A program made the translations under genes and the position numbers. Positions 27,158 to 43,149 of a stretch of DNA of 64,000 nucleotides are shown here, piece by piece (the first letter of the stretch is position 1; every line of letters begins with the position of its first letter). The notes under the pieces are model-generated. The model worked only from the letters and a program-made list of their open reading frames with translations. It did not search any database and had not been told where the DNA came from. Source of the stretch: Thermogemmatispora tikiterensis. Lineage in GTDB: Bacteria > Chloroflexota > Ktedonobacteria > Ktedonobacterales > Ktedonobacteraceae. The stretch lies in assembly GCF_003268475.1 (NCBI RefSeq), contig NZ_MCIF01000002.1, forward strand, positions 73,607-137,606. Direction: 5' to 3'.

Positions 27158-27328
27158 ACTGCTTATTCAGGCAGCAGCTGCCTGGAGCAGGACCTAGACC
27201 GTCCGAGACAGGACCTCACTGCTGACTGCCGGCTAGAACGATCTCGTCTGGCAACAGCGACTAATAAAGACAAAAGGGCTAGCTGATCCTGGCTTCTGAT
27301 GCGCCTGGGTATAATTACTTTTATATCC

Positions 27329-27365: not shown

Positions 27366-27482
27366 CACCAGAGGGTCCGCCTCAGGAACTGGTATTTTTG
27401 TTCTAGTGTAACATTCGATGGGTCTTAACTCATTTTAGAGTAGAACCCTCGGAGAAACGCTGATGTAGAAAAGAGGGGACGC

Positions 27483-28136
27483 ATGGATGAACAACATAGG
27501 GAATCCCTGCTGATCTCTGGTTCAAATCTCCACACGGAACTGGCCCAGTATCTGCAGGATGCAAACAACTATCGCCTGTTATATGGTATCCTGCGCCAGC
27601 TAGTCGCTCGATCGGGTCTGATAGCTGCTGGCAACGACGCTGAGCTTCAGGAACAAACCGATGAGCTGTTCCAGAGCGTCATCCAGCGAGCGTTTGAGCT
27701 GGCAAATAAGCAGCCTGGTCATAAAGTCAATCTCCAGGGATGGCTCTTAAGAATTGCCCACAACATCCTCAAGGAGTTCCGCCGTCAACATCAGCAGGAG
27801 AAGCGGCGAACCCTGCCGCTGAAGCAGATCACTTCGGGGGAATATGAGGATGATGAGGCATTCTTCACCCTATTTAGCCAGCGACTGACCACTGCTGACC
27901 CAACGCTAGAGCTGGAGCAGCGTGAAGGGCTTCGAGAAGCCTTCAGCAATCTCTCGGAGGCTGATCGTCAGATTCTCAGCCTCTTCCTTCACTATGGCTT
28001 CCAGCATAACGAAATTGCGCACCTCTTGAAGATCAGTCCAGGGGCGACTCGCGTGCGCTTTTGTCGCGCCCTCGGGCGCCTGCAAGCCATTCTCGAAGCG
28101 CAAGAAAAGCAGAGACGAGGTGAACGTCATGGCTAA
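27483..28136 (+). CDS. ECF-type RNA polymerase sigma factor, first gene of the Wadjet super-operon
   Basis: A 217-residue sigma factor; AGAGGGGAC precedes its ATG. Region 2 includes the core-binding and -10-reading helices (LQGWLLRIAHNILKEFRRQ, about residues 80-100). Region 4 carries the -35-reading helix-turn-helix (LSEADRQILSLFLHYGF then IAHLLKISPGATRVRFCRAL, about 150-195). Region 3 is missing, as in ECF factors. Its stop lies 8 bases inside the next gene, so it is the promoter-proximal cistron of a defence operon. An autoregulated switch, perhaps held down by the next protein and released by the ImmA-like peptidase, is an attractive inference. I saw no duplicated target promoter in the window. 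Confidence 0.88.
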   Translation: MDEQHRESLLISGSNLHTELAQYLQDANNYRLLYGILRQLVARSGLIAAGNDAELQEQTDELFQSVIQRAFELANKQPGHKVNLQGWLLRIAHNILKEFRRQHQQEKRRTLPLKQITSGEYEDDEAFFTLFSQRLTTADPTLELEQREGLREAFSNLSEADRQILSLFLHYGFQHNEIAHLLKISPGATRVRFCRALGRLQAILEAQEKQRRGERHG

Positions 28137-28749
28137 CGAACGACGGCCCATTTCTCGCGAGCAGCTGGCGCGTGAGAAGGCCCTCTATATCTACCTGCGC
28201 GCCTTCGAGCGAGGCGACTTTGATACCATGGACAGAATCTTACAAGAGGCGATGGGAGACTCTGAGCTGGAACAGATGATTATAGATGTTCATAGATATT
28301 ACCTCGAAGAAGAGCAATTCTTTCTGCAGGAAGAAGAGTTAGAAAAACTACGCCAGATCGTCTGGCAGTATCTCCCATCAGCCGTCAGAGATGAAGGCGA
28401 AGAGGTGCAGATTCCTCCTCTGACTTGCCGCGACGTACTCATCCGCATGCAGGAGAACGTTCTCAGCCGAGGGGCAATCAAGCAAGAGCTGCAGAGACTT
28501 CTCCAGCAGCTGCCCGGCTCTACGCCAGCGCTACCAGATGATCTCAGTCTTCAGAATATCAGGCGCCTCTTTGAGCGGCTCGGGTTACAGCCAACCCTTC
28601 CTTTCCTCAAGCACTTTCGCGAGCAGGCTATCATGCTGGCCATGCAACGCAGGCAGGGTCAGGCTGGTCTGGCAGCAGCTCGTCAGCAGCGAGCAGCCTG
28701 GCAGCGCAGACAAGAGGAACAGCGCACGCATAGGAAGCCGGAGGCTTAG
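28129..28749 (+). CDS. Small helical protein between sigma factor and ImmA peptidase; candidate anti-sigma factor
   Basis: A 206-residue, mostly helical, charged protein with no transmembrane segment. The ATG at 28129 is preferred over the GTG at 28120 because GAGGTGA is correctly spaced for it; it overlaps the sigma gene by 8 bases. The N-terminal ~70 residues (ALYIYLRAFERGDFDTMDRI, DSELEQMI) resemble the helical N-terminal segment of zinc-less anti-sigma factors in Ktedonobacterial sigma operons. The centre is Leu/Gln-rich with a likely coiled coil, and the C-terminus is Gln/Arg-rich (RQQRAAWQRRQEEQR). I do not recognise a defined domain. Position next to an ECF factor and before a peptidase suggests an anti-sigma or substrate role. 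This is inference. Confidence 0.75.
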   Translation: MANERRPISREQLAREKALYIYLRAFERGDFDTMDRILQEAMGDSELEQMIIDVHRYYLEEEQFFLQEEELEKLRQIVWQYLPSAVRDEGEEVQIPPLTCRDVLIRMQENVLSRGAIKQELQRLLQQLPGSTPALPDDLSLQNIRRLFERLGLQPTLPFLKHFREQAIMLAMQRRQGQAGLAAARQQRAAWQRRQEEQRTHRKPEA

Positions 28750-28751
28750 GT

Positions 28752-29474
28752 ATGCAAGACTTCTGTACTGAGCGCGTCATGCAGCTCATTGATGAACTCT
28801 ATGCCAGCTCTCAGGTGGAACCCCCCACCCTACGCTACCCTATTGCCCCACTGGGCGAAATCATTGACGCCTCGAATCTCCTCTGTATTGAGCTGGCTGA
28901 TCTCACGCGCACCACGGCACTGCGCTACCTCTTCACTCAGGGGGGGCTGTTGGAGGTACCTGTTGACGAGGATCAGGAGCCGCTGGCAGGCTTCATCCAT
29001 GCCGGCAGCCGCTATGGCTGTATCTTTGTCGAGCGTCGGGATCTGCTGGTCCGTCGACGCTTCTCGGCTGCGCACGAGCTTGGGCACTATCTCCTTCACT
29101 TCCGTCCCGCGTTGCAAGAGGCTGAGCGACGGCACCACCATGTCGAGATCAGCGAAAGACTGCCTCTGGCAGGCAGTGAGACCTCCGCGACTATAAGCGT
29201 TCTGGCAGGAGATATAAACGATCTCGCGCCGCTTCCACCCCGTTGGCAAATGGAGCGAGAGGCCAACATTTTTGCCACCTTGCTGCTCATGCCTGAAGAG
29301 ATCGTCCGGGGCCTGGCGGCCCGCCTCCCCCTCTGGAGCAGCGAAGCTGACTTCGTCTCGGCTCTTGCAACCTGCCTGCTGGTCAGTGATCAGGCCATGC
29401 AGCTGCGTCTGAAAGAGCTGCAGCTGCTTCCCTTGCCACGCAGAGTAGCCAAGGGATTCACTACCACATCTTAG
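28752..29474 (+). CDS. ImmA/IrrE-family metallopeptidase
   Basis: A 240-residue zinc peptidase (DUF955) starting 2 bases after the previous stop, with GGAGG as ribosome site. The active-site helix reads AAHELGHYLLH (HExxH-type), and the third ligand segment is EREANIFATLLLMPEE, as in ImmA and IrrE. An N-terminal helical part and a beta-rich FIHAGSRYGCIFVERR segment precede it. Members cut repressors or regulators on DNA damage (ImmA with ImmR, IrrE/PprI with DdrO). Some work as switches of mobile elements and defence systems. Here it lies between a sigma/anti-sigma-like pair and DNA-end processing genes, so a damage-triggered release of the operon is plausible. No separate HTH repressor is encoded nearby. 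Confidence 0.9.
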   Translation: MQDFCTERVMQLIDELYASSQVEPPTLRYPIAPLGEIIDASNLLCIELADLTRTTALRYLFTQGGLLEVPVDEDQEPLAGFIHAGSRYGCIFVERRDLLVRRRFSAAHELGHYLLHFRPALQEAERRHHHVEISERLPLAGSETSATISVLAGDINDLAPLPPRWQMEREANIFATLLLMPEEIVRGLAARLPLWSSEADFVSALATCLLVSDQAMQLRLKELQLLPLPRRVAKGFTTTS

Positions 29475-29493
29475 AGAGGGAGGAGGCAGCGGC

Positions 29494-30540
29494 ATGACAC
29501 GGATCGGAGGTTTGGATTTTTTAAAGAATAATGGGGCGCGGCGTGTCCGCAACGACCAGCCACGGCCCTGGCTAATCGAAGAGGGGAACGAGGTCATTGT
29601 TGAGGAGGTGCGAGAAGAGCTTCTCAACTACGAGCGCTCGCGAGAGCATTGGGCAGGGATCGATGTCCTATCCGCTCGCCCGCCTGTTGACTGGCCCTGG
29701 TGGCCCAGGCGCTTCGTTGATGGCAAGAACGTTGGCCGCACCGTCGCCTGGCTGCAGACACGCGAGGGTTTTCCCGTACCCGTGCGTCTGGCTGAAATCG
29801 GTGCGGCTGCACTCATCGATCAGGCAGGTCTACTGCGGCGCGAGTACGAGGCCGTTGAACGTGTGGTCTCGCTGGCCGTCGAAGGCTTTCCCTGGGACGA
29901 AGTCGAAAGCTTCGCCGCCGCTCTAGGAGAACACGATCTGCGTCTCCTACCTTGCCATCCCTCGCCGATGAGCTACTCCTTCGAGCAGATGCGTCGCGCT
30001 GTGCAAAACCGCATGCAGGAAGAGATGGACTTGTTGATGCGCCGCGCTTTGGCCTGCAATCTGCAGCTACCCACCCTGGTCGATGGGCGGCTGGAGCCGT
30101 GTGTTGGGGCCTTCGACCAGGACAGCGCGCCCATTGTCGGCCTGATCAAAACGCATGCGCGCGTCTATCTCCCCTCGCGTGAGCTGCCCCTGCTCTACGA
30201 ACTGGAGCCGGGCCAGCGTACGCCGGCTTTCTGCATCGGCGGCAAGCTACCCCTGGTCACCTGGTACCTCCGACTGAACCCGCTAGGGAGCGAGTTGCCC
30301 TACTGGGGCCTGGTACGCCTGGAAATCTCCCGCTCCTTTTATGAAGGCTTCATCGGAGGTGATCCACGCTATATCGATTATCTCTCGCACATCATCTACA
30401 GCTACCGCTGCAAAAACCATAGCTACGGGCGCGCCGCCATCTCGATCTATCCCATTCAGCGGGTTGAAGAAACCCTGGAAGCACTCTTTACTCCCAATGA
30501 AATGCTTGTGCAGCGCTTTTACCGTTACACCAATATATAA
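29494..30540 (+). CDS. nurA: NurA-domain nuclease
   Basis: A 348-residue NurA-like nuclease; the ATG follows AGAGGGAGGAGG. The RNase H-like metal sites are visible: RRFVDGKNVGRT with Asp76, TLVDGRLEP with Asp197, and PIVGLIKTH with the conserved Lys219. A C-terminal SYGRAAISIYPIQRVEE closes the fold. NurA degrades 5' strands and cuts single-stranded DNA inside a HerA ring. The next gene is herA, 48 bases away, and Mre11 and Rad50 homologues follow, reproducing the archaeal resection gene set. It is only distantly similar to the NurA at 7692-8859, which is a different subfamily. Unlike that copy, this one is intact. Confidence 0.85.
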   Translation: MTRIGGLDFLKNNGARRVRNDQPRPWLIEEGNEVIVEEVREELLNYERSREHWAGIDVLSARPPVDWPWWPRRFVDGKNVGRTVAWLQTREGFPVPVRLAEIGAAALIDQAGLLRREYEAVERVVSLAVEGFPWDEVESFAAALGEHDLRLLPCHPSPMSYSFEQMRRAVQNRMQEEMDLLMRRALACNLQLPTLVDGRLEPCVGAFDQDSAPIVGLIKTHARVYLPSRELPLLYELEPGQRTPAFCIGGKLPLVTWYLRLNPLGSELPYWGLVRLEISRSFYEGFIGGDPRYIDYLSHIIYSYRCKNHSYGRAAISIYPIQRVEETLEALFTPNEMLVQRFYRYTNI

Positions 30541-30588
30541 ATCATCGCTCTTCCAGGTAATACATGCGTCAGGAGGTGACGGAAGAAG

Positions 30589-32424
30589 ATGCAAACCATC
30601 GATCATGAAGCCCATCAGACTGCGGATGAGCAATACGACCTGCTGGAAGAACCCCACTGCCTGGGTCTTGTCGGCTCCCCTCAGGGCCAGGAGGCCACCA
30701 GCCGTCGCTTCTTCTTCTGGGTCAAACGGGATGCGCTAGTAGAGGAGACGCAGTTAGTCTACTGCGACAGCGTGATTGCCAATCGCCGCTATCGTTTCTA
30801 CGGCATTGTCGAGGAAGTCGTGAGGCGCAGTCGCAAGCGCAGCATGGATGACGAGATTGACCAGGCTGACGGCGACATCGATTACGATCCGCCTTTCGAG
30901 AGCGACGGCTACACCTATGCGCGCGTCAGCATCCTGGCCGTTGAGCCGCGAGTCCTGACGCCGCCGCGTGAGCGTAGCAAGGTGTACCTGGCGGGTGAGA
31001 GGGAGGCAGCTATTGCTTACGCCGCCGGTGAGATTCGCCCTGGGCGGGAGCTGCCGATTGGCCTGATCAAGAACGGCGGCGAGCCACTGGCTGGAGCAGG
31101 CTTGCTGGATCTCGACTATCTGCTCGGCCTCAACGGCGGCCACCTCAACGTCACTGGGTCGACCGGGCGTGGGACCAAATCCAGCTTCCTCCTCTTTGTC
31201 GTCTGGATGCTCCTGCACTACTGCCGTGAACTGGAGCGCCTGGCACCCTCACAGCCAGATCGCACGCGCGTCGTGCCCGTGATCTTCAACGTCAAAAACT
31301 ACGACCTCTTCTTCATCGATCGCCAATGCAAGCACTTTGGTCCCGAGCATCAAGCTGACTGGCTCCGTCTGGGTGTGAGTGATCCTCGCCCTTTCCGCAA
31401 CGTGACCTTCTATGCGCCAGCCAGCAAGGAGAGTGGTCTGCCCGTCTACACGCGACGCAGTGAGGGGGTCATTCCCTACAGCTGGGGGCTGCAGGACATC
31501 ATTGAGAGCGCTCTCTTCCGCTACCTCTTTGCCGAGGAAGACGCCAGCGACCCCAACTTCGGCGCCCTGGTGCTCGATGTCGAGGCCTTCTTAACGCGGG
31601 AGCAGCGGCGCGCAGATGGCTCCCTCGTTCGCACTCTGAGTCCTTCTGGCCCTCAGACCTTCCAGGAGCTGCTGGAGTGGGTGAACAGGCGATCCAATAA
31701 ACGGGCAGATGGAGATAACGAGAGTGAAGGTAAAGAGGGGACGCAGCTCAGCCAGAACCACCATCTCCAAACCTGGAAGAAGCTCTATCGGCGCCTCTTC
31801 CTGCTGGTCTCCGAGAGCAGCGGCGTCCTGCGCCGCCATGAGCGTCAGGGCAGGCCGCTCGACGTCGTGCGTGCCGACACCAGCGATCCGCTGGTCATCG
31901 ATCTCTTCTCGCTGGCTGGTATGCCCGAGATGCAGCGCTTCGTCGTTGCCACCATCTTCCGTCAACTTGTCGAGGCGCGCAGCGGCTCCGGGGTCGTTAG
32001 CGGCCTGGTCTACATCGTCATGCTTGACGAGCTTAATCGCTTCGCTCCCCGCGGCGCCCGTGATCCCATCACGCAGCTTATCGAAACGGTTGCCGCCGAA
32101 ATGCGCTCGCAAGGGATCATCCTGCTCGGTGCCCAGCAGCAGGCTTCCAGGGTCTCCGAGAAAGTCATCGAGAACGCTGCCATCAAGGTTCTTGGGCGAA
32201 CTGGCTCCCTGGAGCTGGGCACCCCTGTCTGGCGCTTTCTCAGCGAGAGCGCCCGCGAGCGCGCTCTGAACCTGCGCATCAACGAGAAGCTGATCATTCA
32301 GGATGCCTTTCGCGAGCCCATGCTCGTGCGTGTCCCTTTCCCAGTCTGGGCCATGAATGCCGAAGAAGCGCTCTCATCCTTGAGTGCGACCAGCGACGGC
32401 CAGGATGACCTCATCGAGCGCTGA
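30589..32424 (+). CDS. herA: HerA-like DNA-pumping ATPase with unusual Walker A
   Basis: A 611-residue HerA/FtsK-clade ATPase starting after a perfect AGGAGGTGA. An N-terminal HAS barrel (FFFWVKRDALVEE, YRFYGIVEEVVRR, about residues 25-130) leads into the ATPase. Its P loop reads GSTGRGTKS (190-198), with a Thr inserted before the Lys relative to the classical GxxxxGK[ST]. The Walker B is IVMLDELNRFAPRG near residue 478, followed by GIILLGAQQQASRV (sensor/arginine-finger region). The large middle insertion includes a polar Asn/Glu-rich loop around 375. HerA feeds DNA to NurA. The GxKS-type change recurs, as I recall, in a bacterial HerA subgroup, so it may be functional. The partner NurA is directly upstream, Mre11 downstream. 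Confidence 0.87.
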   Translation: MQTIDHEAHQTADEQYDLLEEPHCLGLVGSPQGQEATSRRFFFWVKRDALVEETQLVYCDSVIANRRYRFYGIVEEVVRRSRKRSMDDEIDQADGDIDYDPPFESDGYTYARVSILAVEPRVLTPPRERSKVYLAGEREAAIAYAAGEIRPGRELPIGLIKNGGEPLAGAGLLDLDYLLGLNGGHLNVTGSTGRGTKSSFLLFVVWMLLHYCRELERLAPSQPDRTRVVPVIFNVKNYDLFFIDRQCKHFGPEHQADWLRLGVSDPRPFRNVTFYAPASKESGLPVYTRRSEGVIPYSWGLQDIIESALFRYLFAEEDASDPNFGALVLDVEAFLTREQRRADGSLVRTLSPSGPQTFQELLEWVNRRSNKRADGDNESEGKEGTQLSQNHHLQTWKKLYRRLFLLVSESSGVLRRHERQGRPLDVVRADTSDPLVIDLFSLAGMPEMQRFVVATIFRQLVEARSGSGVVSGLVYIVMLDELNRFAPRGARDPITQLIETVAAEMRSQGIILLGAQQQASRVSEKVIENAAIKVLGRTGSLELGTPVWRFLSESARERALNLRINEKLIIQDAFREPMLVRVPFPVWAMNAEEALSSLSATSDGQDDLIER

Positions 32425-32448
32425 ACTGGCGAGCAGGAGGAAAGTAGC

Positions 32449-33684
32449 ATGAGAATATTGCATACCGCTGACTGGCATCTCAATAGCCGCCTGGGGCGGC
32501 AGCAGCGCAACCCCGATCTTGTGCGTGCCCTCAACCGCGTCGCTCTTTACCTGGAAGAGGAGCGGGTCGATGTCATGCTCGTCGCCGGGGACCTCTTCCG
32601 CGAGCGCAGCCATGCTGAGCAGCTACAGGCGGGTGTCGAGATCATCAAGATCGCTTTCAAGCCTTTCATCGAGCGCGGTGGCACCATCGTTGCCATCTGC
32701 GGCAATCACGACAGTGAGGTCTTCTTTACCACGCTGCGCGATGCCCTCGATCTGGTGATGCCTGCCAGCCAGCACGGCGATGAGCTTCACAGCAGCGGAC
32801 GGCTTTACCTGGTGCCCAGAGCCAGAGTGCTCAGGCTGAGCGATCGCGACGGGCAGGTGGTCCAGTTCGTGCTGATGCCCTATCCGAGCAGCTCCTATCT
32901 CCGCGGCGAGGCCGGACAGCGCTTTGAGACGCTGGCCCAACGCAATCGCGCCATCGCGGAGCAATTCCGCTCCGTCCTCACCCGGCTGCAGCAGGGGCTA
33001 GAGTCGCGCTGGCCCTCTGTCCTCGTGAGTCACATTCTCACCAGAGGGATGTTGGCCCCGTCCGGCCACTATCTGGAGGAAAGCGATGAGGTGCGCCTGG
33101 AAGCGAGCGACCTCTCCTTTCCCTGGAGCTACGTGGCGCTGGGCCACGTGCACTGTCCCCAGGCGGCACTGCCCAATGCCGTCCATATGCGCTATGCAGG
33201 CAGTATCGAGCGTCTGGACTATGGCGAGCGGGATGATCAGAAAAGCGTCGTGCTGCTGGAGATCAAAGATGGGCGCCTTGTGGAGCCGCCGCGCCTCCTG
33301 CCTCTGGAGAGCGCCCCCTTTTATGAGGTGGAGGTTCGCAATCCCGCCCAGGAGCTTCCTACCCTCCCCGCACTCTATCCCGACCACGAGCGGGCCCTGG
33401 TGCGCTATATTCTGCACTGGGACTCATCGACGATGAGCGTCGGCGAGCGCGAGCGCCTCTGTCAGGCCATAGAAGGGCTGTTCCCACGCTGGTACGAGCG
33501 CGAGATTAGAGATGTGCGCAGCGGCACCGTGACGAGCAGTGCTTTGACCTTCCAGCAGAGCCGCGATGTGCTGGCCACGGTGCGTCACTACCTCGATCTG
33601 TGCCTGAAAGATGACCCTGAGCCTGAACGCGAGGCCATGTTGCAGCTCGCCGAGCAGCTCTTTATGGAGGTAGAAGAGCGATGA
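32449..33684 (+). CDS. sbcD: SbcD/Mre11-family DNA double-strand-break nuclease
   Basis: A 411-residue calcineurin-like phosphoesterase starting after AGGAGG. All metal motifs are in place: HTADWHL (residues 5-11), VAGDLF (~45), CGNHDS (~85), a VSHIL segment (~190) and LGHVH (~230). The C-terminal cap extends to the stop, which overlaps the next ATG (ATGA). Mre11/SbcD with Rad50/SbcC cuts blocked, hairpin or protein-bound DNA ends. The motif set is complete, so catalysis should be intact. Its place between HerA and Rad50 copies the archaeal herA-mre11-rad50-nurA organisation. In this operon it probably processes DNA opened by the Wadjet nuclease. Confidence 0.95.
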   Translation: MRILHTADWHLNSRLGRQQRNPDLVRALNRVALYLEEERVDVMLVAGDLFRERSHAEQLQAGVEIIKIAFKPFIERGGTIVAICGNHDSEVFFTTLRDALDLVMPASQHGDELHSSGRLYLVPRARVLRLSDRDGQVVQFVLMPYPSSSYLRGEAGQRFETLAQRNRAIAEQFRSVLTRLQQGLESRWPSVLVSHILTRGMLAPSGHYLEESDEVRLEASDLSFPWSYVALGHVHCPQAALPNAVHMRYAGSIERLDYGERDDQKSVVLLEIKDGRLVEPPRLLPLESAPFYEVEVRNPAQELPTLPALYPDHERALVRYILHWDSSTMSVGERERLCQAIEGLFPRWYEREIRDVRSGTVTSSALTFQQSRDVLATVRHYLDLCLKDDPEPEREAMLQLAEQLFMEVEER

Positions 33685-36419
33685 GACCCCACCGTCTGCG
33701 CCTCAAAGGCTTCATGTCCTACCGTGATGATACCGTGATCTCCTTCGATGGCTCTACCATTTGGGCGATCTGCGGCCCTAACGGGACCGGCAAGTCCACC
33801 ATCTTTGACGCGATCTGCTTTGCTCTCTATGGCGAATCGCGCCTGGGCAAGCAGCACCAACAGGAGTTGATCTATCACCAGGTCAACGAACTACTGGTCG
33901 AATTCGACTTTGCCGTCGGCTCCCAGGAGTACCGTGTCCGGCGCACCGTCCAGCGCCGTGGCCAGAAGACCCAACAGGCCTATCGCCTTGCTGGAGGGGG
34001 GAGTTGGCAACCCATTCCTGGTACCGATAAGAAGGATAATTTGGCAACCTGGACGCAGCAGCTCCTTGGCCTCGATTGCCAGAGCTTCACCTTCTCGGTC
34101 CTGCTGCGCCAGGGCAAGACTGATGCGCTTCTGACTGCAGATGCTCCGCAGCGGCACGCGCTGCTGAGCCAGATCATCGATCTCACACCTTACGAGAGGC
34201 TCCATAAGAGGGCCTGCGACTACCAGAGACAGTATGAAGGGGAGATCGGAGCCTTGAAAAGCCAGCTGCAGGGCCTGCCTGCCATTCAGGAGGAAACGCT
34301 TCGCCAATTAGAGGAGCAGCTCCTAGCAAGCGAGCGCCTTTGCAATGAGCTGAATAGGCGGCAGCTTGAACTCGCACGACTCCAGGCCCTCGCTCAGCAG
34401 TGGGAGCGTCTGCTGCAAGAGCAGGAGCGACTCCAGGAGGCACTGGCCAGCTATGAGCACCTGCTTCGCCAGGCCCATCAGATTGAACAGGACGCCATCC
34501 GGTTGGAAGAATTGGAGCGGGTGCTCCCTCCCCTACAAAGCATCCAGAAGCTGCTTCATATGCAAAAGAATTTAGAGAAGAAAAAATATCAATTAGAGAT
34601 GAAAAGATCTCTGTATGAAGAATATGATTGCAGCATCGATACGCTGATGAAACTGGACCAGGCCCGTGTGGCCTTGCAGGCCTTCGCTCGCGAGCGAGTG
34701 CGATGGAGACAGGCGGCACGTCGCCTGGCAGAATTGGAGCGCGAGCGGGAGCAGGACGCCACGGCCCTGGCCCGTTTGCAGGAGCAAGAGGGTCTGCTGC
34801 GTGCTCAGTGCGAAGCCGCTGACACAAGGCTCCTCGCCGCAAGCGAGGAGCGCGCACGCTGTCAAACTCTGCTGGCCGAGAGCCAGAAGCGTCTGCGACG
34901 CTTCAACGAAGTCGATGGGACCCAGGTCTGTCGCTACTGCGGTCAGCCGCTTACCCCAGAGCACCTTGAGCGCGAGCGCGCACGCCTCAACGCCGAACTG
35001 TTACAGGTCAGGCAGGAGTATGAGCAGGCAGCGTTGAAAGAAAAAGAAGCTAAAAATGTGTATAATCATCAATGTAATCAAATGCATCAAATAGAATCTG
35101 ATATACAGAGTATTCGCGATCGTGCGTTCCGCCACGAGCAGGAGCGACAGCAACTTTGTAGTGAGCAGGCTGTAGCAGCGGACCATGCGCTCACTATCTC
35201 TGCTCAGCTGGCTCCCAGCTACCTTGAGCGCATTGTCGGCGCTCCTAATCTGCCTTTTGACCCGAGGCGCCATCTCTCGGCTGGCAGCTATCCAACGCCA
35301 GAGGACCTGAACGCTCTACAGAGATGCTGCCAGAGCGAGCAGGAGCGCCTCCAGCAGCTGCAGCAAGAGCTTGGCAGGCGGACAGATAGCCTTACCCATC
35401 TGGAGACGCTGCGCCGGACTATCCAGGCCGAGAGCGTGCAGCTACGGGATCAGCTCGTTGCTACCGGGCGCGATCTCACCCATTGCCAGCAGCGCATCTG
35501 TGACGAGCAGGCTATGCTGCCAGCGGACTGGCGCAGTCGGGCGCTTGACCTTGCTCCCGAGCACGTGGCCGACTGGGAAGATGAGAGGCAGGGCTTGCAG
35601 GGGGCCAGAGAGCGCCTGCAGGAGCTGGCTCGGGCGCGCTACCAACACGAACAGGACCGGCAGCGTTTGCAGGACATCAAGCGACAGTTTGAGCAGATAC
35701 CGCCAGCGGCTCGGCGGGCTGCAGCTGAGGTGGTGCAAGAGCAGGAGCAGATCCATCTGTGCTATGAAGAGCAGGTCAGGCAGCAGCAAGCCCAGGGTCA
35801 GCAGCTTGCCTTGCAACGCGAACAGTTTCAAAGGCGCCAGCAACTGGAGAGAGAGCTGCAGAAGGCGGAAACCCGACATCGTCGCTATAAGCGCCTTGCC
35901 GTGCTGCTTGGCCGTGAGCACCTACAGCATTATTTGATCCAGCAGGCTGAGCGGGGTATCATCTATCACGCGAACGATATACTCATGCACATCTCGAATG
36001 GTAGCCTGCAGCTGCTTCTACCTCAAAACGAGGGGCCAGCAGAGATGGCAGGCCGGGACGCCTCAGAAAGCAAGGCACTGGAGCTGCGAGTGATCAATAG
36101 CGCCGTGGATGCTCAACGCCCCCAGTCAGTCAAGCTGCTCGGCGGTGGTCAACAGTTTCGCATAGCCGTGAGTCTGGCGCTGGCGATTGGGCGCTATGCC
36201 GGCAGCCTGCATCAGCGCGTCGAGTCTGTCATGATCGACGAAGGCTTTGGCAGCCTCGATGAGCAAGGGAGGGCAGAGATTATTCAGGCCCTGCGCGATT
36301 TTGAGGGCCTTCTCAAGCGCATCATCGTGATCTCGCATCAACGCGAATTCTTTGATGAGTTTGAGCACAAGTACTATGTCGATCTCCAAGATGGCAGCAG
36401 TAGGGTTTCTGTCAGGTAA
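33681..36419 (+). CDS. sbcC: SbcC/Rad50-family SMC-like ATPase
   Basis: A 912-residue Rad50-type protein. Walker A (GPNGTGKST) lies at about 35-43 and is preceded by the typical LKGFMSYRDDTVISF. Two long heptad-rich coiled coils flank the zinc hook VCRYCGQPL (Cys417, Cys420). The C-terminal half carries the signature LLGGGQQFRIAVSLALAIG and the Walker B SVMIDEGFGSLDEQG, then a final ISHQREFFDEF. The length is close to archaeal Rad50, shorter than E. coli SbcC. It overlaps sbcD by 4 bases, so the two are coupled. Two patches in the coiled-coil region (about 34560-34620 and 35030-35110) are markedly AT-rich compared with the rest of the gene. Confidence 0.95.
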   Translation: MRPHRLRLKGFMSYRDDTVISFDGSTIWAICGPNGTGKSTIFDAICFALYGESRLGKQHQQELIYHQVNELLVEFDFAVGSQEYRVRRTVQRRGQKTQQAYRLAGGGSWQPIPGTDKKDNLATWTQQLLGLDCQSFTFSVLLRQGKTDALLTADAPQRHALLSQIIDLTPYERLHKRACDYQRQYEGEIGALKSQLQGLPAIQEETLRQLEEQLLASERLCNELNRRQLELARLQALAQQWERLLQEQERLQEALASYEHLLRQAHQIEQDAIRLEELERVLPPLQSIQKLLHMQKNLEKKKYQLEMKRSLYEEYDCSIDTLMKLDQARVALQAFARERVRWRQAARRLAELEREREQDATALARLQEQEGLLRAQCEAADTRLLAASEERARCQTLLAESQKRLRRFNEVDGTQVCRYCGQPLTPEHLERERARLNAELLQVRQEYEQAALKEKEAKNVYNHQCNQMHQIESDIQSIRDRAFRHEQERQQLCSEQAVAADHALTISAQLAPSYLERIVGAPNLPFDPRRHLSAGSYPTPEDLNALQRCCQSEQERLQQLQQELGRRTDSLTHLETLRRTIQAESVQLRDQLVATGRDLTHCQQRICDEQAMLPADWRSRALDLAPEHVADWEDERQGLQGARERLQELARARYQHEQDRQRLQDIKRQFEQIPPAARRAAAEVVQEQEQIHLCYEEQVRQQQAQGQQLALQREQFQRRQQLERELQKAETRHRRYKRLAVLLGREHLQHYLIQQAERGIIYHANDILMHISNGSLQLLLPQNEGPAEMAGRDASESKALELRVINSAVDAQRPQSVKLLGGGQQFRIAVSLALAIGRYAGSLHQRVESVMIDEGFGSLDEQGRAEIIQALRDFEGLLKRIIVISHQREFFDEFEHKYYVDLQDGSSRVSVR

Positions 36420-36463
36420 CACTAGGCAGGCGCTGATTTCTGGTAGCTCAGGAGAGAGAAGAG

Positions 36464-37948
36464 ATGCAAGATTTTACACAATATGACTATCTTGAGTGTA
36501 TCCTGCAGGAATCCCCTGGCATTCGGCTGCTCAAGGCGACAAACGCCTCCATGATTATCAGTTTTTTCTTTAGCATCTTTAGGAAAGATATGTGCTCTTC
36601 TGTTCCACTTAGCGTCTTTCTGGAGAGGCTTGAAGCCCATCTACAGGAGCTGAACGCGCGGAGGCCGGGTAGCTACACACGGTCTGCGCAGGCCTATCTG
36701 AACGAGTGGTGCGACGAGGAACATCGTTTTCTGCAGGTGCGACGTGGGGATGGCAAAGGAGAGCATCGAGTGGAGCTGACGGCGGAGACAGAACGCACCC
36801 TGAGCTGGCTGGAGACCCTAGAGGAGCTGCCTTTTATCGGCACTGAGTCGCGTTTCCTGCAGATCATCCGCTTGCTTCGTGAGATGGATGAGCAGAGCAT
36901 GACTGACCCGCAGGCACGCATTGCTCGACTTGAAGAGCAGCGCAGAGAGATCGAGCAGCAGATTGCCAGGATCAGTCAGAGCGGCAGTGTGCCGGTCTTA
37001 GATGATTGGCAGATCGTTGAGCGCTTCCTGGAAGTCAGGCGCATGGCTCGTGAGCTGCTGCATGACTTTCGCCGCGTTGAGGAAGTTTTTCGCAAGCTGG
37101 CCGACTCCATCACGCAGGCCAGCCTGGAGCAAGAGGTGCACAAAGGACAACTCATTCACCATGTCCTGGATGCAGATCAGGCTCTTAAGTCATCGGAGCA
37201 GGGGCAGAGTTTCTACTCGTTTTGGGGCTTCATCAGTCAGCCCTGGTGGTATAAGGAACTCTACAGGCTTATTGAGCGTATGCTCTCGCTTGAAGCGGTT
37301 ACACCTCGGTGCAGAGAGGATCACTTGCTGCGTCGCCTCCCGATGGCGCTCTTTGAGGCAGGCTGGAGCATTGTCCTCTCGAACTACCAGCTGGCCGAAT
37401 CTCTGCGCCGGCTACTCGATGAGCAGATCAGAGAGGAACAGCGTCGCCTGGAAGAGCTGCTGATTGCTATCAAGCGCCAGACCCTTGTACTGAAGGATAG
37501 TTTGCCGCTTGACGAGCCCCTGCTAGAGCTAGAAGGCTCGCCCCAGGTTTATCTCCCCCTGGAAAGGGGGTTCTGGCAGCCAGCCGAGGAGCCACTACTC
37601 TGCGCCGGGTCCCTGGCGGTTGAGGGCCATGAGCCAGATGCAGCAGATCTGAATGCCCTTTTCAGCGGAGTCCACGTCGACGAGAGCCTGCTACGCGGGC
37701 GTCTCAGGAAGATTCTGCAGGAGGTGCCGGCGATTACGCTGGCTGAGCTGCTGGTCCGCTACCCTCCCGAGGCGGGCCTGGCCGAACTGCTAGTCTATCT
37801 GGCCATTGCTGCCTCTGAGCCTGCTCATCTGATCGATCCTACGAGCTATGATCTCATTGTGCTGCCGTCCCCCTGTGCGGGACTAGCATGCGGGGCCTCG
37901 CGCTGCTGGCTGGTCCCGCGCGTCCTCTACCAGCGAGCAGAAGGGTGA
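36464..37948 (+). CDS. jetA: JetA, kleisin subunit of type I Wadjet (DUF3375)
   Basis: A 494-residue protein after an AGGAGAGAG site. It matches DUF3375: an N-terminal helical region (LECILQESPGIRLLKATNAS), the LNEWCDEEHRFLQVRRG segment, ELTAETERTLSWLETLEEL, EELPFIGTESRFLQIIRLL, then coiled coil (residues ~145-175) and QGQSFYSFWGFISQP. JetA is the kleisin-like bridge of the JetABC SMC complex that extrudes DNA loops and restricts plasmids. It starts 44 bases after sbcC and is followed after 2 bases by jetB. Type I is assigned from the DUF3375-DUF4194 combination. Nothing in it appears truncated; length is near the family norm. Confidence 0.88.
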   Translation: MQDFTQYDYLECILQESPGIRLLKATNASMIISFFFSIFRKDMCSSVPLSVFLERLEAHLQELNARRPGSYTRSAQAYLNEWCDEEHRFLQVRRGDGKGEHRVELTAETERTLSWLETLEELPFIGTESRFLQIIRLLREMDEQSMTDPQARIARLEEQRREIEQQIARISQSGSVPVLDDWQIVERFLEVRRMARELLHDFRRVEEVFRKLADSITQASLEQEVHKGQLIHHVLDADQALKSSEQGQSFYSFWGFISQPWWYKELYRLIERMLSLEAVTPRCREDHLLRRLPMALFEAGWSIVLSNYQLAESLRRLLDEQIREEQRRLEELLIAIKRQTLVLKDSLPLDEPLLELEGSPQVYLPLERGFWQPAEEPLLCAGSLAVEGHEPDAADLNALFSGVHVDESLLRGRLRKILQEVPAITLAELLVRYPPEAGLAELLVYLAIAASEPAHLIDPTSYDLIVLPSPCAGLACGASRCWLVPRVLYQRAEG

Positions 37949-37950
37949 CC

Positions 37951-38565
37951 ATGAAAGGCGGCCGTGTCCTTCCCTATGCGTCGGTGATCCTTAGACTCCT
38001 GCAAGGGGCTGTCTTTAGCGACGATCATGACATCTGGAGCGACCTTCTCCAGCACCAGCCGAAGATCGAGGCCTACTTTGAACAGATCGGCCTGGAACTG
38101 CGCGTTGACGAGAACAGCGGCCTGGCTTACTTGCTTCAGCCAGAAATAGAGGACGATGAAGGCCGTTCATTGCGGCTCCCTCGCCTGACTCGCCGCGATC
38201 GCCTCTCCTATATAGCAACGCTGCTCTGTGTCGTTTTGCGAGACAGGCTGCTCTGTAGTGAGCGGGATAGCTTCATGCTGGAGCCGCTGCTCTGCTCGTA
38301 TCAGCAGCTAGTCGATTGGTGCAAACCGTATCTGCCTGAGCGGCATGATGAGCGCAAGACGGAGCAGCAGATCGAGAAGGCCATCGAGCGTTTGATTGAG
38401 CTAAACTTTCTGCGGGCGCATGGGCAGGGTCAGGATGCCATGTATGAGGTACGTCCCCTGCTCAAAGCCAAATTGGATGTCGAGACCCTTGAGCAGCTCA
38501 AAGAAAGGCTAAGGCAATATGGCAAACAAAGAGTGGATGGAGCAGACGCAGCGGAAGAACTCTGA
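37951..38565 (+). CDS. jetB: JetB, KITE-type subunit of Wadjet (DUF4194)
   Basis: A 204-residue protein. The ATG at 37951, 2 bases after the jetA stop and after AAGGGTGA, is preferred over an upstream GTG/ATG lying inside jetA. It resembles DUF4194 (KITE/MukE-like winged-helix dimers): ASVILRLLQGAVF at the start, GLELRVDENSGLAYL, LPRLTRRDRLSYIATLLCVVLRDRL and a C-terminal winged helix with IEKAIERLIELNFLRAH. JetB dimers bind the kleisin JetA and the SMC coiled coils. Its 3' end overlaps the jetC start by 47 bases, which makes translation coupling certain to be tight. Confidence 0.87.
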   Translation: MKGGRVLPYASVILRLLQGAVFSDDHDIWSDLLQHQPKIEAYFEQIGLELRVDENSGLAYLLQPEIEDDEGRSLRLPRLTRRDRLSYIATLLCVVLRDRLLCSERDSFMLEPLLCSYQQLVDWCKPYLPERHDERKTEQQIEKAIERLIELNFLRAHGQGQDAMYEVRPLLKAKLDVETLEQLKERLRQYGKQRVDGADAAEEL

Positions 38566-41500
38566 GAGCAGAGAGCCAGAAGGTTGGAATGGGACAGCCC
38601 AGCCAATCCCCGCTTCGGCCTCTCCTGCCGCACAGCCAGCAGCAGGTATGGGGGGCTTCCGTCTTCATGTGCTGGAGGTCTATAACTGGGGCACTTTTAA
38701 TGGCCTGGCGCGCCTGGAGCCGCTCGGAGGCTCTGCCCTGCTCACCGGGGCTAACGCGGCGGGCAAGACAACCCTGGTCGACGCCCTCTTGACGCTCATG
38801 GTTCCCCCTGGTAAACGCCTCTATAACCAGGCGGCAGGTGGTCACAAGGCCGAGGAGCGTAACGAACGAACCTATATCCGCGGGGCCTGGAAAAAGCTGC
38901 AGGATGTCGATTCCTCTAGCTCTCGCAACATCTATCTGCGCGGCACCAACAGCCATAGTGTGCTGCTAGCAATTTTCCGTCGGCTGATCCCCGAGCAAGC
39001 GCCAGAAGAGATCACGCTGGCTCAACTCTTCTGGTGGGAAGGGGGAGACACCCTCCGACGCCTCTATATTGTGGCCCGCACTGCGCTCTCTATTGCTGAG
39101 CATTTTTCTCCTCAGCAGCCGCTCAAGCTTTCTGAGCTGCGAAAGCAGCTCAAAAGCGCAGGAGTCGAACTGTTCGAGCACTTTTCCCCCTACAGTCGCC
39201 GCTTCCAGCACCTCTTCCATCTGCGTTCAGAGAAGGCGATGGATCTGTTCAACCAGATCACGGTCGTCAAGGACATCGGTCCACTCAACCAGTTTATTCG
39301 CAATCATATGCTGGAAAAGTATGATATACATGAAGATCTAAAAGAACTTTACAATAATTATGTCAATCTGACGCGTGCCTACGCAGCCATTGAGCGGGCA
39401 GAGCGGCAGCTGGCTATTCTGACTCCACTGATCGCTCAGGCTGACAGTTACGAGGACCTGCAACGGCGTATTCAAGAAACCGAGGAGGCACGCGAATTTC
39501 TGGAATATTACTTCTTAGGCTACCGAAAGCATTTGTTGGAGCAAGCTCTTGTCGAACAGCAGCGGCGCTATGAGCAGCTGGCGGCCAGCAAGGCCGCGCT
39601 GACGGAGATGCTGGTGCCGCTGCGTGATCAAGAGAGAGAGATCTATGCCCAGATCCGGAGCGATGAAGTTGAGCGGCAGCTGAGCACGCTGAGCGAGCGT
39701 CTGCAGCGTCTTCAAGAGGAGCGAGAGCGGCGCCGGCGAGAGGCTCAGCGCTATACGGCGCTAGCTCAGGCGCTTGGTCTGGTCGGCTTTAGCGATGAGC
39801 CAACATTTCAGCGCACGCGGGAACAGGCGCTGCACCTGCAAGCAAAGATAGAGGAGCATCAGCGCAGGCTCATTGCCAGACGCGATGAGCTGGTCACAGC
39901 CAAAGCAAGACTGAGTGAGCACTGCCAGCAACTGCGGCAAGCGATTGCCTCCCTGCAACAGCGCGGAAGTCAGTTGCCGGAGAGCGACCTTCTGCTACGC
40001 AGCCGCCTGGCTGCCGCGTTGCAGCGCTCCACAGAGGAGCTGCCCTTTGTCGGCGAGCTGCTGCGCGTTCGAGAAACAGACCGCGCCTGGGAACCGGCTA
40101 TTCAGCGTCTGCTGCGCGGTTTCGGGCGCCATCTATTAGTGCTCGGGGAGTATTATCAGGAAGTCAGCCGCTATGTTGAGCAGACCGATCTCAAAGGGCA
40201 TCTGATCTACCGCTGTGTTCAGCCCGGCCAGGGTCCGGGCCGTCGTGGTGAGCTGACCGCCCAATCGCTCTATCACAAGCTAGAGATTCGCCAGCACGCC
40301 AATCCTATCTTTGCCACCTGGCTTGAAACGGAATTGATTGATTTCTACAATTATCGTTGCTGTGAGAGCCTGGAGGAGTTCCGGAGTGCCCCGCGCGCTT
40401 TGACACGCCAGGGCCAGATCAAACACAACCGTAGTCGCCATGAAAAGGATGATCGTACCCCCTTGGGTGATCCCCGTAACTACGTTCTGGGCTGGGATAA
40501 TAGTTCGAAACAGCGTGCTCTCATCGAGGAGCTGGAGACGAGCCAGCGACAATTGGACCACTGCACTGCCGAGAAGGAGGCTCTTGAAAGAGAGCAGCAG
40601 GACCGGCAGCAGCAACGTGATCAACTGCGCCGTTTACTGGATGTCGAGACGTTTGCACGCCTTGACTGGTATGCAGTTGATCGAGAATGTCAGCGGCTGG
40701 TGAGAGAGCTGGAACAACTGCGTGGTCGCTCCGAGTACCTCAATCAGTTAAAAAGCCAGCGAGCTGCTTTACAAGAAGCTATTAAGGAGAAAGAAGAGAC
40801 GCTTCGTCAGAAAGAGCAGCAGCTTGGGATGCTGCGAGGGTATCTGGAGCGCGATCAGGCTGAGCTGGCTGCCTGCCAGCGGCTGCTTGGCCAAACGCCA
40901 CCGCTGACGGCGGAGGGGCGCGAACGGGCCAGAGTCCGCATTGAGCGCGATCTCAAAAACGAGAGAGCGCTGAGTCTAGATACGCTTGGTGAGATCAAGC
41001 AGAGGCTGGCAAGGACCTATCAGCAAAGCCTGAGTCCATTGAAGGGGAACAGTGAGAAGATGGCAGAGGAGATTCGCGAGCGGATGCGGGCGTTCCTGGA
41101 GACTGATCCTGCCCTCAGGCAGCAGCTAGATGACAGCCTGGCCGCGTTGCCAGACTACCGGCGTTGCTACGAGCGTATTCAAAAGGATGATCTGCCGCGC
41201 CATCGTGCCGGTTTTAAAGCCTTGCTCAACGAGAAGGTGGTGACCAGTATCACCGGCTTTCAGGCCACGCTGTACCAGCACGAGCAAGCGATCCGCGAAA
41301 GCCTGGAGACGCTCAACGCTGCGCTAGCAGCGGTTCCCTACAGTGCCAGTACCTATCTGCAGCTTTGTGCTGATCTGACCCGCAACCAGGAGATTGTGGA
41401 GTTCCGTCGCGCCCTCAAAGCCTGTATTCCCGATGTAGGCCAGCTGACCCCGGAGAGTTACCACTCCTGCTTTGAACGCATTCAGGGCCTGCTCAAGCGC

Positions 41501-41998
41501 TTGCAGTCCGAGGAAGCCTGGGCTCAGCGCGTCACCGATGTGCGCAACTGGCTTGAATTCAGAGCGGAGGAGCGTCAGCGTGGGCAGCCGCAGCCCATCG
41601 TCGCCAACTCTTACTCCGACTCAGCGGGCCTGAATGGCGGCCAGAAAGCCAGGCTGGCAACAAGCATTCTGGCCTCGGCCACCGCCTATCAATATCAGCT
41701 TGATCGGCCAGAGGTAAGGGATGCCGCTTTGCGTCTAGTTGTGCTTGATGAAGCCTTTGGCCGCTCTGATCAGGCTAACACTCTCCTGGCCCTAGAACTC
41801 TTCCGCAGCCTTGGTTTTCAGTTGATCGTGGTGACGCCTCTTGAGAAAATCGCTGTTATTGAGCCATTCATTTCCTCTTGTCATCTGATCGTGAGAAAAA
41901 GTGAAGAGAGCTGTCCTTTCGTCTACAACATGAGCGATGTTCAGTTGCGACAGTATCGCGAGCGTTATTCACAGCAGAAGGAGCTGTCCCCATCATGA
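38519..41998 (+). CDS. jetC: JetC, SMC/MukB-like ATPase of Wadjet
   Basis: A 1159-residue SMC-family motor. A ~45-residue Ser/Pro/Ala-rich start precedes LHVLEVYNWGTFNGL, the hallmark N-terminal strand of JetC. Walker A is GANAAGKT at 77-84. Long coiled coils fill roughly 330-480 and 670-830, with a hinge-like globular region between (~510-640). The signature SAGLNGGQKARLATSI occurs near 1040 and the Walker B LVVLDEAFGRSD holds Asp1077-Glu1078, followed by LIVVTPLEKI. JetC powers loop extrusion used to measure and select small circular DNA for cleavage by JetD. It ends in an ATGA overlap with jetD. An AT-rich patch occurs at about 39305-39365. Confidence 0.93.
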   Translation: MANKEWMEQTQRKNSESREPEGWNGTAQPIPASASPAAQPAAGMGGFRLHVLEVYNWGTFNGLARLEPLGGSALLTGANAAGKTTLVDALLTLMVPPGKRLYNQAAGGHKAEERNERTYIRGAWKKLQDVDSSSSRNIYLRGTNSHSVLLAIFRRLIPEQAPEEITLAQLFWWEGGDTLRRLYIVARTALSIAEHFSPQQPLKLSELRKQLKSAGVELFEHFSPYSRRFQHLFHLRSEKAMDLFNQITVVKDIGPLNQFIRNHMLEKYDIHEDLKELYNNYVNLTRAYAAIERAERQLAILTPLIAQADSYEDLQRRIQETEEAREFLEYYFLGYRKHLLEQALVEQQRRYEQLAASKAALTEMLVPLRDQEREIYAQIRSDEVERQLSTLSERLQRLQEERERRRREAQRYTALAQALGLVGFSDEPTFQRTREQALHLQAKIEEHQRRLIARRDELVTAKARLSEHCQQLRQAIASLQQRGSQLPESDLLLRSRLAAALQRSTEELPFVGELLRVRETDRAWEPAIQRLLRGFGRHLLVLGEYYQEVSRYVEQTDLKGHLIYRCVQPGQGPGRRGELTAQSLYHKLEIRQHANPIFATWLETELIDFYNYRCCESLEEFRSAPRALTRQGQIKHNRSRHEKDDRTPLGDPRNYVLGWDNSSKQRALIEELETSQRQLDHCTAEKEALEREQQDRQQQRDQLRRLLDVETFARLDWYAVDRECQRLVRELEQLRGRSEYLNQLKSQRAALQEAIKEKEETLRQKEQQLGMLRGYLERDQAELAACQRLLGQTPPLTAEGRERARVRIERDLKNERALSLDTLGEIKQRLARTYQQSLSPLKGNSEKMAEEIRERMRAFLETDPALRQQLDDSLAALPDYRRCYERIQKDDLPRHRAGFKALLNEKVVTSITGFQATLYQHEQAIRESLETLNAALAAVPYSASTYLQLCADLTRNQEIVEFRRALKACIPDVGQLTPESYHSCFERIQGLLKRLQSEEAWAQRVTDVRNWLEFRAEERQRGQPQPIVANSYSDSAGLNGGQKARLATSILASATAYQYQLDRPEVRDAALRLVVLDEAFGRSDQANTLLALELFRSLGFQLIVVTPLEKIAVIEPFISSCHLIVRKSEESCPFVYNMSDVQLRQYRERYSQQKELSPS

Positions 41999-43149
41999 TC
42001 AACTATGCTCTCGTCCAGGAGAGAGCGCACCGGCTCTACCGAGATTTTCTCAGCGCTTGGGTGGAGGACAAGCCCTTCTTCCCACAGAGCTTTTCTGCAG
42101 GGCTGCCTTCCCAGGATTACCATGAGCTATTGCATGCTACTCAAGAGCTTATCACTCATTCGCGTGAGGTCCAGGGACAGGGCTATCGTCTTGAGATGCG
42201 CACTGTACGGCTGCGGCATCTAGGCACGCAGACTATCCCAACCAGGATCATCATTGAGCGTGCCGATGATTTGCTCTGGCTTACAGGCAAACGCGAGGAA
42301 TTCGAGCAGTTTTGTGCGGATGTGGCGCTCATTCGGGCCGAAGTGCCTGCACTGGAGGCCTGGCTGCGCGCTCAGCCGCAGCAGGTGATCCGCTATCATG
42401 GTCTCTGGCCTCAGCTATTGCTGGTGTGTCGCTGCTTTCTGGAGCATCCCCGGCCTCAACTCTATGCGCGTGCTCTCAGTGTGCCAGTCGACACCAAATT
42501 TATTGAGCGGCATACCGGTATTCTTACCCGGCTGTTGCGCCAGATCCTCCCTCCGCTAGCCATTCGTGAGGACGGTCGGACCTTTGCTCAGCGCTTTGGC
42601 CTGCGCGAGAGCGAAACGCTGATCAGAATCCGTCTGCTGGATGACCAGTTTTTCAAGCGCTATGGGTTGCCCCTGACTGATCTCAGTCTCCCTCTCTCCG
42701 AACTGGCTCGCCTGGAGGTGCTGCGGGGCCAGCGTTGTCTGATTGTCGAAAACCTGCTCACCTTCCAGGCGCTGCCTTCTTCGTTCCCCGAGACGATTGT
42801 CATCTTCGGTGGTGGCTTTCAGGTCACGCTGTTAGAGGCAGTGACGTGGCTGAAGGAGAGCCCACTTTTCTACTGGGGCGATCTTGATGCGCAGGGCTTT
42901 CAGATTCTCTCTGCTCTGCGCTCCAGTTTCCCCAAGGTGACCGCGGTTATGATGGATGAGGAAACGCTGGCCAGATTCGCTGCATTTCAGGTGCAGGGTA
43001 CTCCGTGTTCAGTACGCCAGCTGCCCGCGCTGAGCGCTGCAGAGCAGGCCCTCTTGACAAAGCTTGCCGAGGAGAATATCCGCTTAGAGCAAGAGCGTAT
43101 CGATTGGACATATGCCTGTCAGCGGTTGCAGGAGCAGTTGCGGCCCTAG
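41995..43149 (+). CDS. jetD: JetD, TOPRIM nuclease of Wadjet (DUF3322-DUF2220)
   Basis: A 384-residue nuclease whose ATG overlaps the jetC stop. The N-terminal arm (DUF3322-like, to ~170) includes KFIERHTGILTRLLRQIL. The TOPRIM domain (DUF2220) has Glu252 in CLIVENLLTF, FGGGFQ, and the metal-binding pair Asp296/Asp298 in FYWGDLDAQGF. JetD is related to the topoisomerase VI/Spo11 nuclease core and cuts the plasmid once JetABC has trapped it. All catalytic residues seem present. It is the last gene of the operon: after its stop, 190 bases separate it from a convergent reductase gene. A clear terminator was not found. Confidence 0.93.
   Translation: MINYALVQERAHRLYRDFLSAWVEDKPFFPQSFSAGLPSQDYHELLHATQELITHSREVQGQGYRLEMRTVRLRHLGTQTIPTRIIIERADDLLWLTGKREEFEQFCADVALIRAEVPALEAWLRAQPQQVIRYHGLWPQLLLVCRCFLEHPRPQLYARALSVPVDTKFIERHTGILTRLLRQILPPLAIREDGRTFAQRFGLRESETLIRIRLLDDQFFKRYGLPLTDLSLPLSELARLEVLRGQRCLIVENLLTFQALPSSFPETIVIFGGGFQVTLLEAVTWLKESPLFYWGDLDAQGFQILSALRSSFPKVTAVMMDEETLARFAAFQVQGTPCSVRQLPALSAAEQALLTKLAEENIRLEQERIDWTYACQRLQEQLRP

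Follow-up and report, generated by a model that had tools for sequence, protein, structure and literature searches.

A conserved seven-gene cassette linking a sigma factor and an ImmA-type protease to HerA-NurA and SbcD-SbcC, and its local junction with a type I Wadjet system in Thermogemmatispora tikiterensis

A 64,000-nucleotide stretch of the Thermogemmatispora tikiterensis genome (contig NZ_MCIF01000002.1, positions 73,607 to 137,606; the whole stretch is called the window below) carries, at positions 27483-43149, eleven co-directional genes encoding a sigma factor, a helical protein (helP), an ImmA/IrrE peptidase, NurA, HerA, SbcD, SbcC and the four Jet proteins of a type I Wadjet system. 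The question raised by this locus is whether the eleven genes form one functional system, as the original prediction, made from the sequence alone, had claimed. The analysis indicates that the eleven-gene operon is real, that the discovery is the cassette formed by its first seven genes, and that the junction with Wadjet is a local event. We consider it probable that genes 1 to 7 are a mobile accessory cassette, in which a protease/sigma switch drives an end-processing machine, and that Wadjet is a local add-on.

The eleven genes and their products

All eleven open reading frames (ORFs) were present on the plus strand, and the identities first proposed for them were borne out by Pfam, PADLOC and solved structures. 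The features are as follows, with E values in parentheses.

27483..28136, plus strand: extracytoplasmic function (ECF)-like sigma factor (Pfam Sigma70_r4_2, 3.9e-6; Sigma70_r2, 2.9e-5)
28120..28749, plus strand: helP, all-helical, probable soluble anti-sigma factor (N-terminal domain common to sigma-linked proteins; AlphaFold model)
28752..29474, plus strand: ImmA/IrrE (M78) metallopeptidase, CapP-like (Peptidase_M78 PF06114, 7.9e-13; PADLOC capP, 8.2e-16)
29494..30540, plus strand: NurA nuclease (17-row profile against 7f6d NurA, 2.7e-12; Foldseek)
30589..32424, plus strand: HerA ATPase/translocase (7f6d HerA, 4.3e-50 over residues 34-594)
32449..33684, plus strand: SbcD, Mre11-type nuclease (Pfam Metallophos, 8.6e-11)
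33681..36419, plus strand: SbcC, Rad50-type ATPase with CxxC hook (SMC_N, 5.3e-18; AAA_23, 5.2e-14; SbcC_Walker_B, 1.3e-6)
36464..37948, plus strand: JetA, Wadjet type I (DUF3375, 2.1e-96; PADLOC JetA1, 2.2e-124)
37888..38565, true start perhaps 37951, plus strand: JetB (DUF4194, 2.1e-33; JetB1, 1.3e-49)
38519..41998, true start perhaps 38648, plus strand: JetC (JetC1, E 0, 1063 bits)
41995..43149, plus strand: JetD (JetD_C, 9.6e-45; DUF3322, 2.4e-40; JetD1, 1.8e-120)

The genes are separated by gaps of 2 nt (helP/ImmA), 19 nt (ImmA/NurA), 48 nt (NurA/HerA), 24 nt (HerA/SbcD) and 44 nt (SbcC/JetA) and overlap by 17 nt (sigma/helP), 4 nt (SbcD/SbcC and JetC/JetD), 61 nt (JetA/JetB) and 47 nt (JetB/JetC). 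The overlap range of 4 to 47 nt given earlier was close and not exact: with the ORF starts adopted here, overlaps of 17 and 61 nt are seen as well. An incorrectly assigned start codon may account for the overlaps of JetB and JetC, because their best matches in PADLOC start only at residues 28 and 43, respectively; later in-frame ATG codons lie at about 37951 and 38648, respectively. Composition was examined as a sign of separate origins of the cassette and the Jet genes and decided nothing (G+C content at third codon positions of 0.58-0.76 versus 0.63-0.65, with 0.56-0.73 in 14 neighbouring genes).

Intact key motifs were found, as predicted, in ImmA, SbcD, SbcC, HerA and JetC. Regions 2 and 4 are both present in the sigma factor, which identifies it as ECF-like, and the HEXXH motif of ImmA (HELGH at residue 108) identifies an M78 peptidase, whose nearest PADLOC entry is capP. 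SbcD carries the DxH, GD, GNHD and GHxH motifs and SbcC the Walker A, CxxC and Walker B motifs, so that the pair is of the Mre11-Rad50 (SbcCD) type. The four contiguous genes jetABCD encode DUF3375, DUF4194, MukB-like ATPase and DUF3322/JetD_C proteins, the gene content of Wadjet type I; JetB is also DUF4194/MksE in Pfam, and JetC has the P-loop GANAAGKT and the motif VVLDE.

HerA and NurA had no Pfam match at 0.01 and were identified from structures. A GxxxxGTKS-type P-loop and a DE motif are present in HerA, and an RNase H-like fold with the catalytic Asp in NurA, as expected of a HerA-NurA pair. The single NurA sequence matched Deinococcus radiodurans NurA (7f6d) at 0.0044. At E of at most 0.001, Foldseek matched its predicted model, which has a predicted local distance difference test score (pLDDT) of 86.6, to D. 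radiodurans NurA (7f6d), TM1739 and Sulfolobus NurA and to nothing else (7f6d_G, 3.7e-14; 1zup, 3.2e-12; 2ygk, 7.4e-7). Residues D76, K219 and R313 are invariant in 17 of 17 aligned rows and correspond, in the 17-row profile alignment, to D53, K201 and R309 of D. radiodurans NurA, mutation of which kills the enzyme according to PMC9960219. The numbering of the 7f6d chain differs from that in the paper by a constant 20 residues, which we infer to be a tag.

Distribution of the cassette and its junction with Wadjet

HerA relatives were collected from 84,980 species genomes, and the resulting 74 loci were searched for the eleven proteins. NurA-HerA-SbcD-SbcC was a common core among these loci. 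The branch bearing front genes was defined by HerA identity of at least 39% in the best segment (38 of the 74 loci, including L122, which full-length comparison places near the other branch). Among the 27 loci of this branch with at least 3.5 kb upstream, sigma was found in 14, helP in 16 and ImmA in 22, with all matches at 6e-28 or better, and none of the three was found in 23 loci of the other branch. In Brasilonema bromeliae, the ImmA gene is split over two frames (L068:7960-8735).

The complete set of seven genes was present at 13 of the 74 loci, or 12 distinct ones, since L095 looks like a duplicate record of L063, both being from one strain. Together with the window, a Candidatus Chlorohelix plasmid and an Aulosira laxa plasmid, there are 15 distinct complete loci, which by their record titles belong to Chloroflexota (4), Cyanobacteriota (6), Planctomycetota (2), Armatimonadota (1) and Acidobacteriota (2). 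In a quick HerA tree of 53 rows, all 15 rows labelled with front genes fell within one 25-row set (Shimodaira-Hasegawa-like approximate likelihood ratio test, 96). The tree excluded L085 (where a single ORF of 967 residues covers NurA and HerA), L095, L074, L086, L091, L128, L072, L087, L134, L125, L129, L131 and L092, together with rows shorter than 500 residues, longer than 900 residues or below 120 bits. The record titled as a Klebsiella pneumoniae metagenome-assembled genome (L113) has a HerA that groups with Binatota-type HerA, and its bin label is doubtful.

Judged from sequence, the first seven genes are a conserved cassette across five phyla. Because they keep the same order elsewhere, the gene order is not due to chance, and the proposal that NurA-HerA and SbcD-SbcC belong with the sigma/helP/ImmA front end stands. 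No description of the cassette, or of its combination with Wadjet, was found in the open PubMed Central literature, with subscription papers and preprints outside this scope.

Jet genes were found at none of the 74 HerA loci by tblastn of the available flanking DNA and were not among the 1002 ORFs of 78 loci. Adjacent Jet genes would have been visible at the 39 HerA loci that extend at least 1.5 kb beyond SbcC, and none was seen (0 of 39). JetA was likewise absent from 36 of 36 HerA-bearing genomes, which were reached via 35 HerA loci and G295. Across 400 genomes of the phylum, HerA matched in 38 and JetA exceeded the cut-off in 5, and this genome alone had both. Only jetABCD was present within the 20 kb read at each of the four other Chloroflexota type I Wadjet loci (G021, G028, G241 and G271), none of which had the cassette, and the two plasmid Wadjet loci read, from 18 plasmid records matched by JetC, had no cassette alongside. 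Co-occurrence of the eleven genes, the check proposed for Chloroflexota and other genomes, was seen in no other genome examined, and the arrangement named in the original prediction as its own refutation, Jet and resection genes at unrelated loci, is largely the one observed. JetABCD is an independent type I Wadjet and a local add-on at the 3' end of the cassette; its content is ordinary, and its position behind the cassette is what is unusual.

Within this genome, the eleven genes do behave as one block, as had been claimed. HerA is absent from five of five other genomes of the genus, and the same holds for JetA.

26994..43330, unstranded: block differing from relatives, which holds exactly the eleven genes

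In one same-genus genome (G003), the flanks 26740-26993 and 43331-43893 sit 3.1 kb apart in the same orientation, compared with 16.3 kb in the window. A second (G001) is 99.3-99.6% identical over 22543-26470, and its region is without the eleven genes. Since a block of exactly eleven genes is missing in relatives, all eleven were gained or lost together here. The site adjoins a 3' fragment of tRNA-Gly(TCC) at 26566-26620 and is rearranged among relatives. This fragment was rejected as the attachment site of the operon, as it is found at this position also in G002 and G003, where the operon is missing; no second copy with at most 3 mismatches was found in the window. A RibD_C-like gene at 43344-43892 was noted as inverted relative to the left flank in G001 and G003. 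A housekeeping SbcD elsewhere in the genome was looked for, and all six genomes of the genus gave a weak partial match only (residues 3-92, E 4.7e-4), too little for a firm conclusion; PF12705, used in a search for AddAB-type nucleases, matched in six of six, a family too broad to allow a conclusion.

These results bear on the view that the eleven genes evolved as a single system: invading circles would be opened by JetD, and their linear product would then be destroyed by Mre11-Rad50/HerA-NurA. The joint gain or loss of the block, the co-directional order and the 44 nt between SbcC and JetA speak for it, and the excerpt of PMC10586767 describes Wadjet as cutting circles while sparing linear DNA and Rad50 complexes as acting on ends. 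The hand-over is biochemically sensible and is drawn from a single genome; given the distribution of the Jet genes, which speaks against a conserved unit, we judge a single evolved system unlikely. Shared transcription, or read-through from SbcC into JetA, is plausible here because the gap is only 44 nt long and has no strong promoter-like match.

Plasmid carriage, block exchange and purpose

HerA matched 8 of 72,556 plasmid records, 2 of them over at least 80% of its length. Both of the latter are complete plasmids (Candidatus Chlorohelix and Aulosira laxa) that carry the full cassette, and one cassette plasmid is 40 kb long and has a relaxase. The Aulosira laxa plasmid (L183:7102-16947) is 95.9% identical over 9.9 kb to a contig of Chlorogloeopsis fritschii (L067:7-9859). 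Between these two, protein identity is 99.6% for DUF6884, 79.8% for sigma, 98.2% for helP, 99.6% for ImmA and 99.1% for NurA and then falls, at the NurA/HerA border, to 45% for HerA, 30% for SbcD and 24% for SbcC. The Aulosira HerA and SbcD are nearest, among the loci compared, to two acidobacterial ones, L085 (59% and 49%) and L109. These alignments indicate that HerA-SbcD-SbcC was swapped as a unit on the Aulosira plasmid for an acidobacterial-like version. A shorter drop, to 75%, lies inside the sigma gene in the same comparison.

Carriage on two complete plasmids, one with a relaxase, and absence from the rest of the genus could also mean that the seven genes serve their carrier replicon, in competition or maintenance by degrading the ends of rivals' DNA, as a plasmid or island trait and not as host defence. 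However, 12 of the 15 complete loci are on contigs not shown to be plasmids, and the copy in the window is on a 5.96-Mb contig. This explanation strikes us as very improbable.

Repair is the main alternative to foreign-DNA destruction, which is the likeliest purpose of the cassette. Deletion of nurA/herA in D. radiodurans raised survival after ultraviolet (UV) light and mitomycin C about tenfold, according to the excerpt of PMC9960219, which argues against a simple repair role. The cassette is also sporadic and plasmid-borne, its HerA-SbcD-SbcC block has been swapped between very different versions, and defence genes lie near several copies. These observations have to be set against those that would make the seven genes a repair cassette, damage-induced like Deinococcus PprI-DdrO, without immune role and with Wadjet as a chance neighbour: the same excerpt reports break resection by HerA-NurA and Mre11-Rad50 in archaea, the switch proteins are reminiscent of a damage response, and most cyanobacterial neighbours have no PADLOC match. 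On balance, a pure repair cassette is rather unlikely.

Known or candidate defence genes were recorded near four cassettes, where 10 proteins were picked by eye: Hma (Chlorohelix), type I restriction and HEC-05 (L070), PDC-S37 (L075) and CRISPR I-G Cas3/Cas8 (L085). A general defence-island enrichment was dropped after a less biased neighbour check gave mixed results, and the defence neighbourhood is claimed for these four loci only. In Calothrix sp. PCC 7103 and on the Aulosira plasmid, a TGT/DpdA-like gene directly follows SbcC and a DUF6884 gene precedes sigma, as listed below; the two are a possible DNA-modification partner of the cyanobacterial cassette.

L183:12734-13510: DUF6884 gene, Aulosira plasmid
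L183:23149-24210: TGT/DpdA-like gene, Aulosira plasmid
L065:5634-6437: DUF6884 gene, Calothrix
L065:16216-17241: TGT/DpdA-like gene, Calothrix

Farther upstream in the window are an OLD-family ATPase/TOPRIM protein (11842-13914, plus strand), a DruA-family protein (8834-10222, minus strand) and carrier-protein, P450, thioesterase and glycosyltransferase domains (14531-23546), perhaps a small biosynthetic cluster.

The candidate switch and its known counterparts

helP had no Pfam match at 0.01 and no PADLOC match, and neither a known anti-sigma family (Pfam) nor a known fold was matched. Its AlphaFold model is all helix (pLDDT 76.6; predicted template modelling score 0.45), and Foldseek returned nothing for it at E of 0.001 or lower. 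The position of helP is kept within cassettes. In 301 genomes of the phylum, proteins whose C-termini differ also match the N-terminal part of helP (about residues 8-90). Nine of the 13 places with a helP domain outside cassettes were inspected. In six of the nine, the gene overlaps a sigma gene or follows it directly; the others comprise two decayed fragments and one place where no sigma gene was seen. Four of four such sigma neighbours tested were confirmed by Pfam. helP is probably an anti-sigma factor, because its N-terminal domain is common to proteins encoded just downstream of sigma genes. The decayed helP-like fragments L137 and L138 (in G005 and G002, respectively) are about 64-67% identical and occur in same-genus genomes without the cassette.

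27407..27441, plus strand: candidate cassette promoter, with TGTAAC 76 nt upstream of the sigma start

The extended box TGTAA[CG]A[AT]T has a single plus-strand match in the 64-kb window, 76 nt before sigma. The offset is identical in a Caldilineaceae locus (L062), and several cyanobacteria have the box in tandem copies.

Gene identities and order, catalytic residues, the helP domain, plasmid carriage, the block swap and the absence of Jet genes elsewhere were obtained by computation. From these we infer helP cleavage, autoregulation, co-transcription with the Jet genes and the target DNA, in the following model. A three-protein switch (ECF sigma factor, helP as anti-sigma factor and CapP-like ImmA protease) would be placed before NurA, HerA and SbcD-SbcC. 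Damaged or invading DNA would expose single strands or ends, upon which ImmA would be activated and cut helP, in the manner of its kin PprI and CapP, which are described as single-stranded DNA-activated proteases cutting repressors in the excerpts of PMC10904395 and PMC13373217. The freed sigma factor would read its own promoter at the TGTAAC box and raise the whole operon, and Mre11-Rad50 and HerA-NurA would chew DNA from its ends. JetABCD would probably be under the same switch here, with circle cutting delivering linear ends to the resection machine.

Several points weigh against the proposal of a switch-driven defence cassette. The anti-sigma role of helP is drawn from gene context, and its model is without a significant structural match. 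The strict TGTAA[CG]A[AT]T pattern, which was defined only after inspecting the sequences, occurs in 7 of the 14 cassettes scanned and is missing in the other 7. JetA could have a promoter of its own in a sigma-70-like match within sbcC (35934-35962), although matches of this kind were barely more numerous than in shuffles (9 versus 4.9, standard deviation 2.4). When the nearest large neighbours at ten loci were compared with PADLOC, 3 of 10 downstream and 4 of 10 upstream matched, several of them weakly or via generic domains, and one downstream row (L033) was antisense to an annotated transposase. Plasmid carriage also sits oddly with a purely anti-plasmid role.

A more specific version of the switch-driven cassette is a possibility that we put forward tentatively, in which the seven genes would be a mobile anti-invader system of a new kind: an ImmA protein sensing single-stranded DNA would free sigma by cutting the anti-sigma factor and thereby turn on a swappable HerA-Mre11-Rad50 shredder, and the 3' end of the cassette would be a slot for partner genes that mark or cut DNA, namely Wadjet here and the TGT/DpdA-like gene, with upstream DUF6884, in Calothrix and on the Aulosira plasmid.

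If the cassette works as proposed, it is the sigma-factor counterpart of immune switches triggered by a protease, and bacterial HerA-NurA gain a plausible non-repair role, which would fit the improved survival of D. radiodurans on their loss. It would also be a portable module for degrading DNA ends, whose carriers include cultivable ones (Calothrix sp. PCC 7103, Chlorogloeopsis fritschii PCC 6912, Zavarzinella formosa and the Aulosira plasmid), and this genome would offer a natural experiment, with Wadjet captured by the module.

The individual parts resemble known systems. The Jet genes are the same four, in the same order, as in Wadjet type I, with JetA1 to JetD1 as the best PADLOC types. 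An archaeal herA-mre11-rad50-nurA gene cluster was reportedly described by Constantinesco in 2004, as named in the title. It has the same four functions, whereas the switch genes are not in the cluster as that title names it. The bacterial HerA-NurA of D. radiodurans (7f6d) has a HerA that matches the one here, the same NurA fold and the three catalytic residues found here, but in the cassette these proteins are joined to SbcD-SbcC and to the sigma/helP/ImmA front end. The excerpt of PMC9960219 describes bacterial NurA-HerA as confined to a few bacteria such as Deinococcus-Thermus, whereas the relatives collected here span many phyla. PprI-DdrO and CapP-CapH likewise place an ImmA-family protease beside the genes to be controlled, and capP is the best PADLOC match here. 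In contrast to these systems, the cassette pairs the protease with a sigma factor plus a probable anti-sigma factor in place of a DNA-binding repressor, and no helix-turn-helix repressor was found among the eleven genes. By analogy, the cassette switch may work like PprI-DdrO and CapP-CapH without being a member of either. CapK-CapS, in the excerpt of PMC13373217, is likewise a small regulatory module before immune operons, with parts resembling sigma regulation, and its regulators are induced by DNA damage. That module uses a kinase and a STAS repressor, whereas the cassette described here has a protease, a probable anti-sigma factor and a sigma factor.

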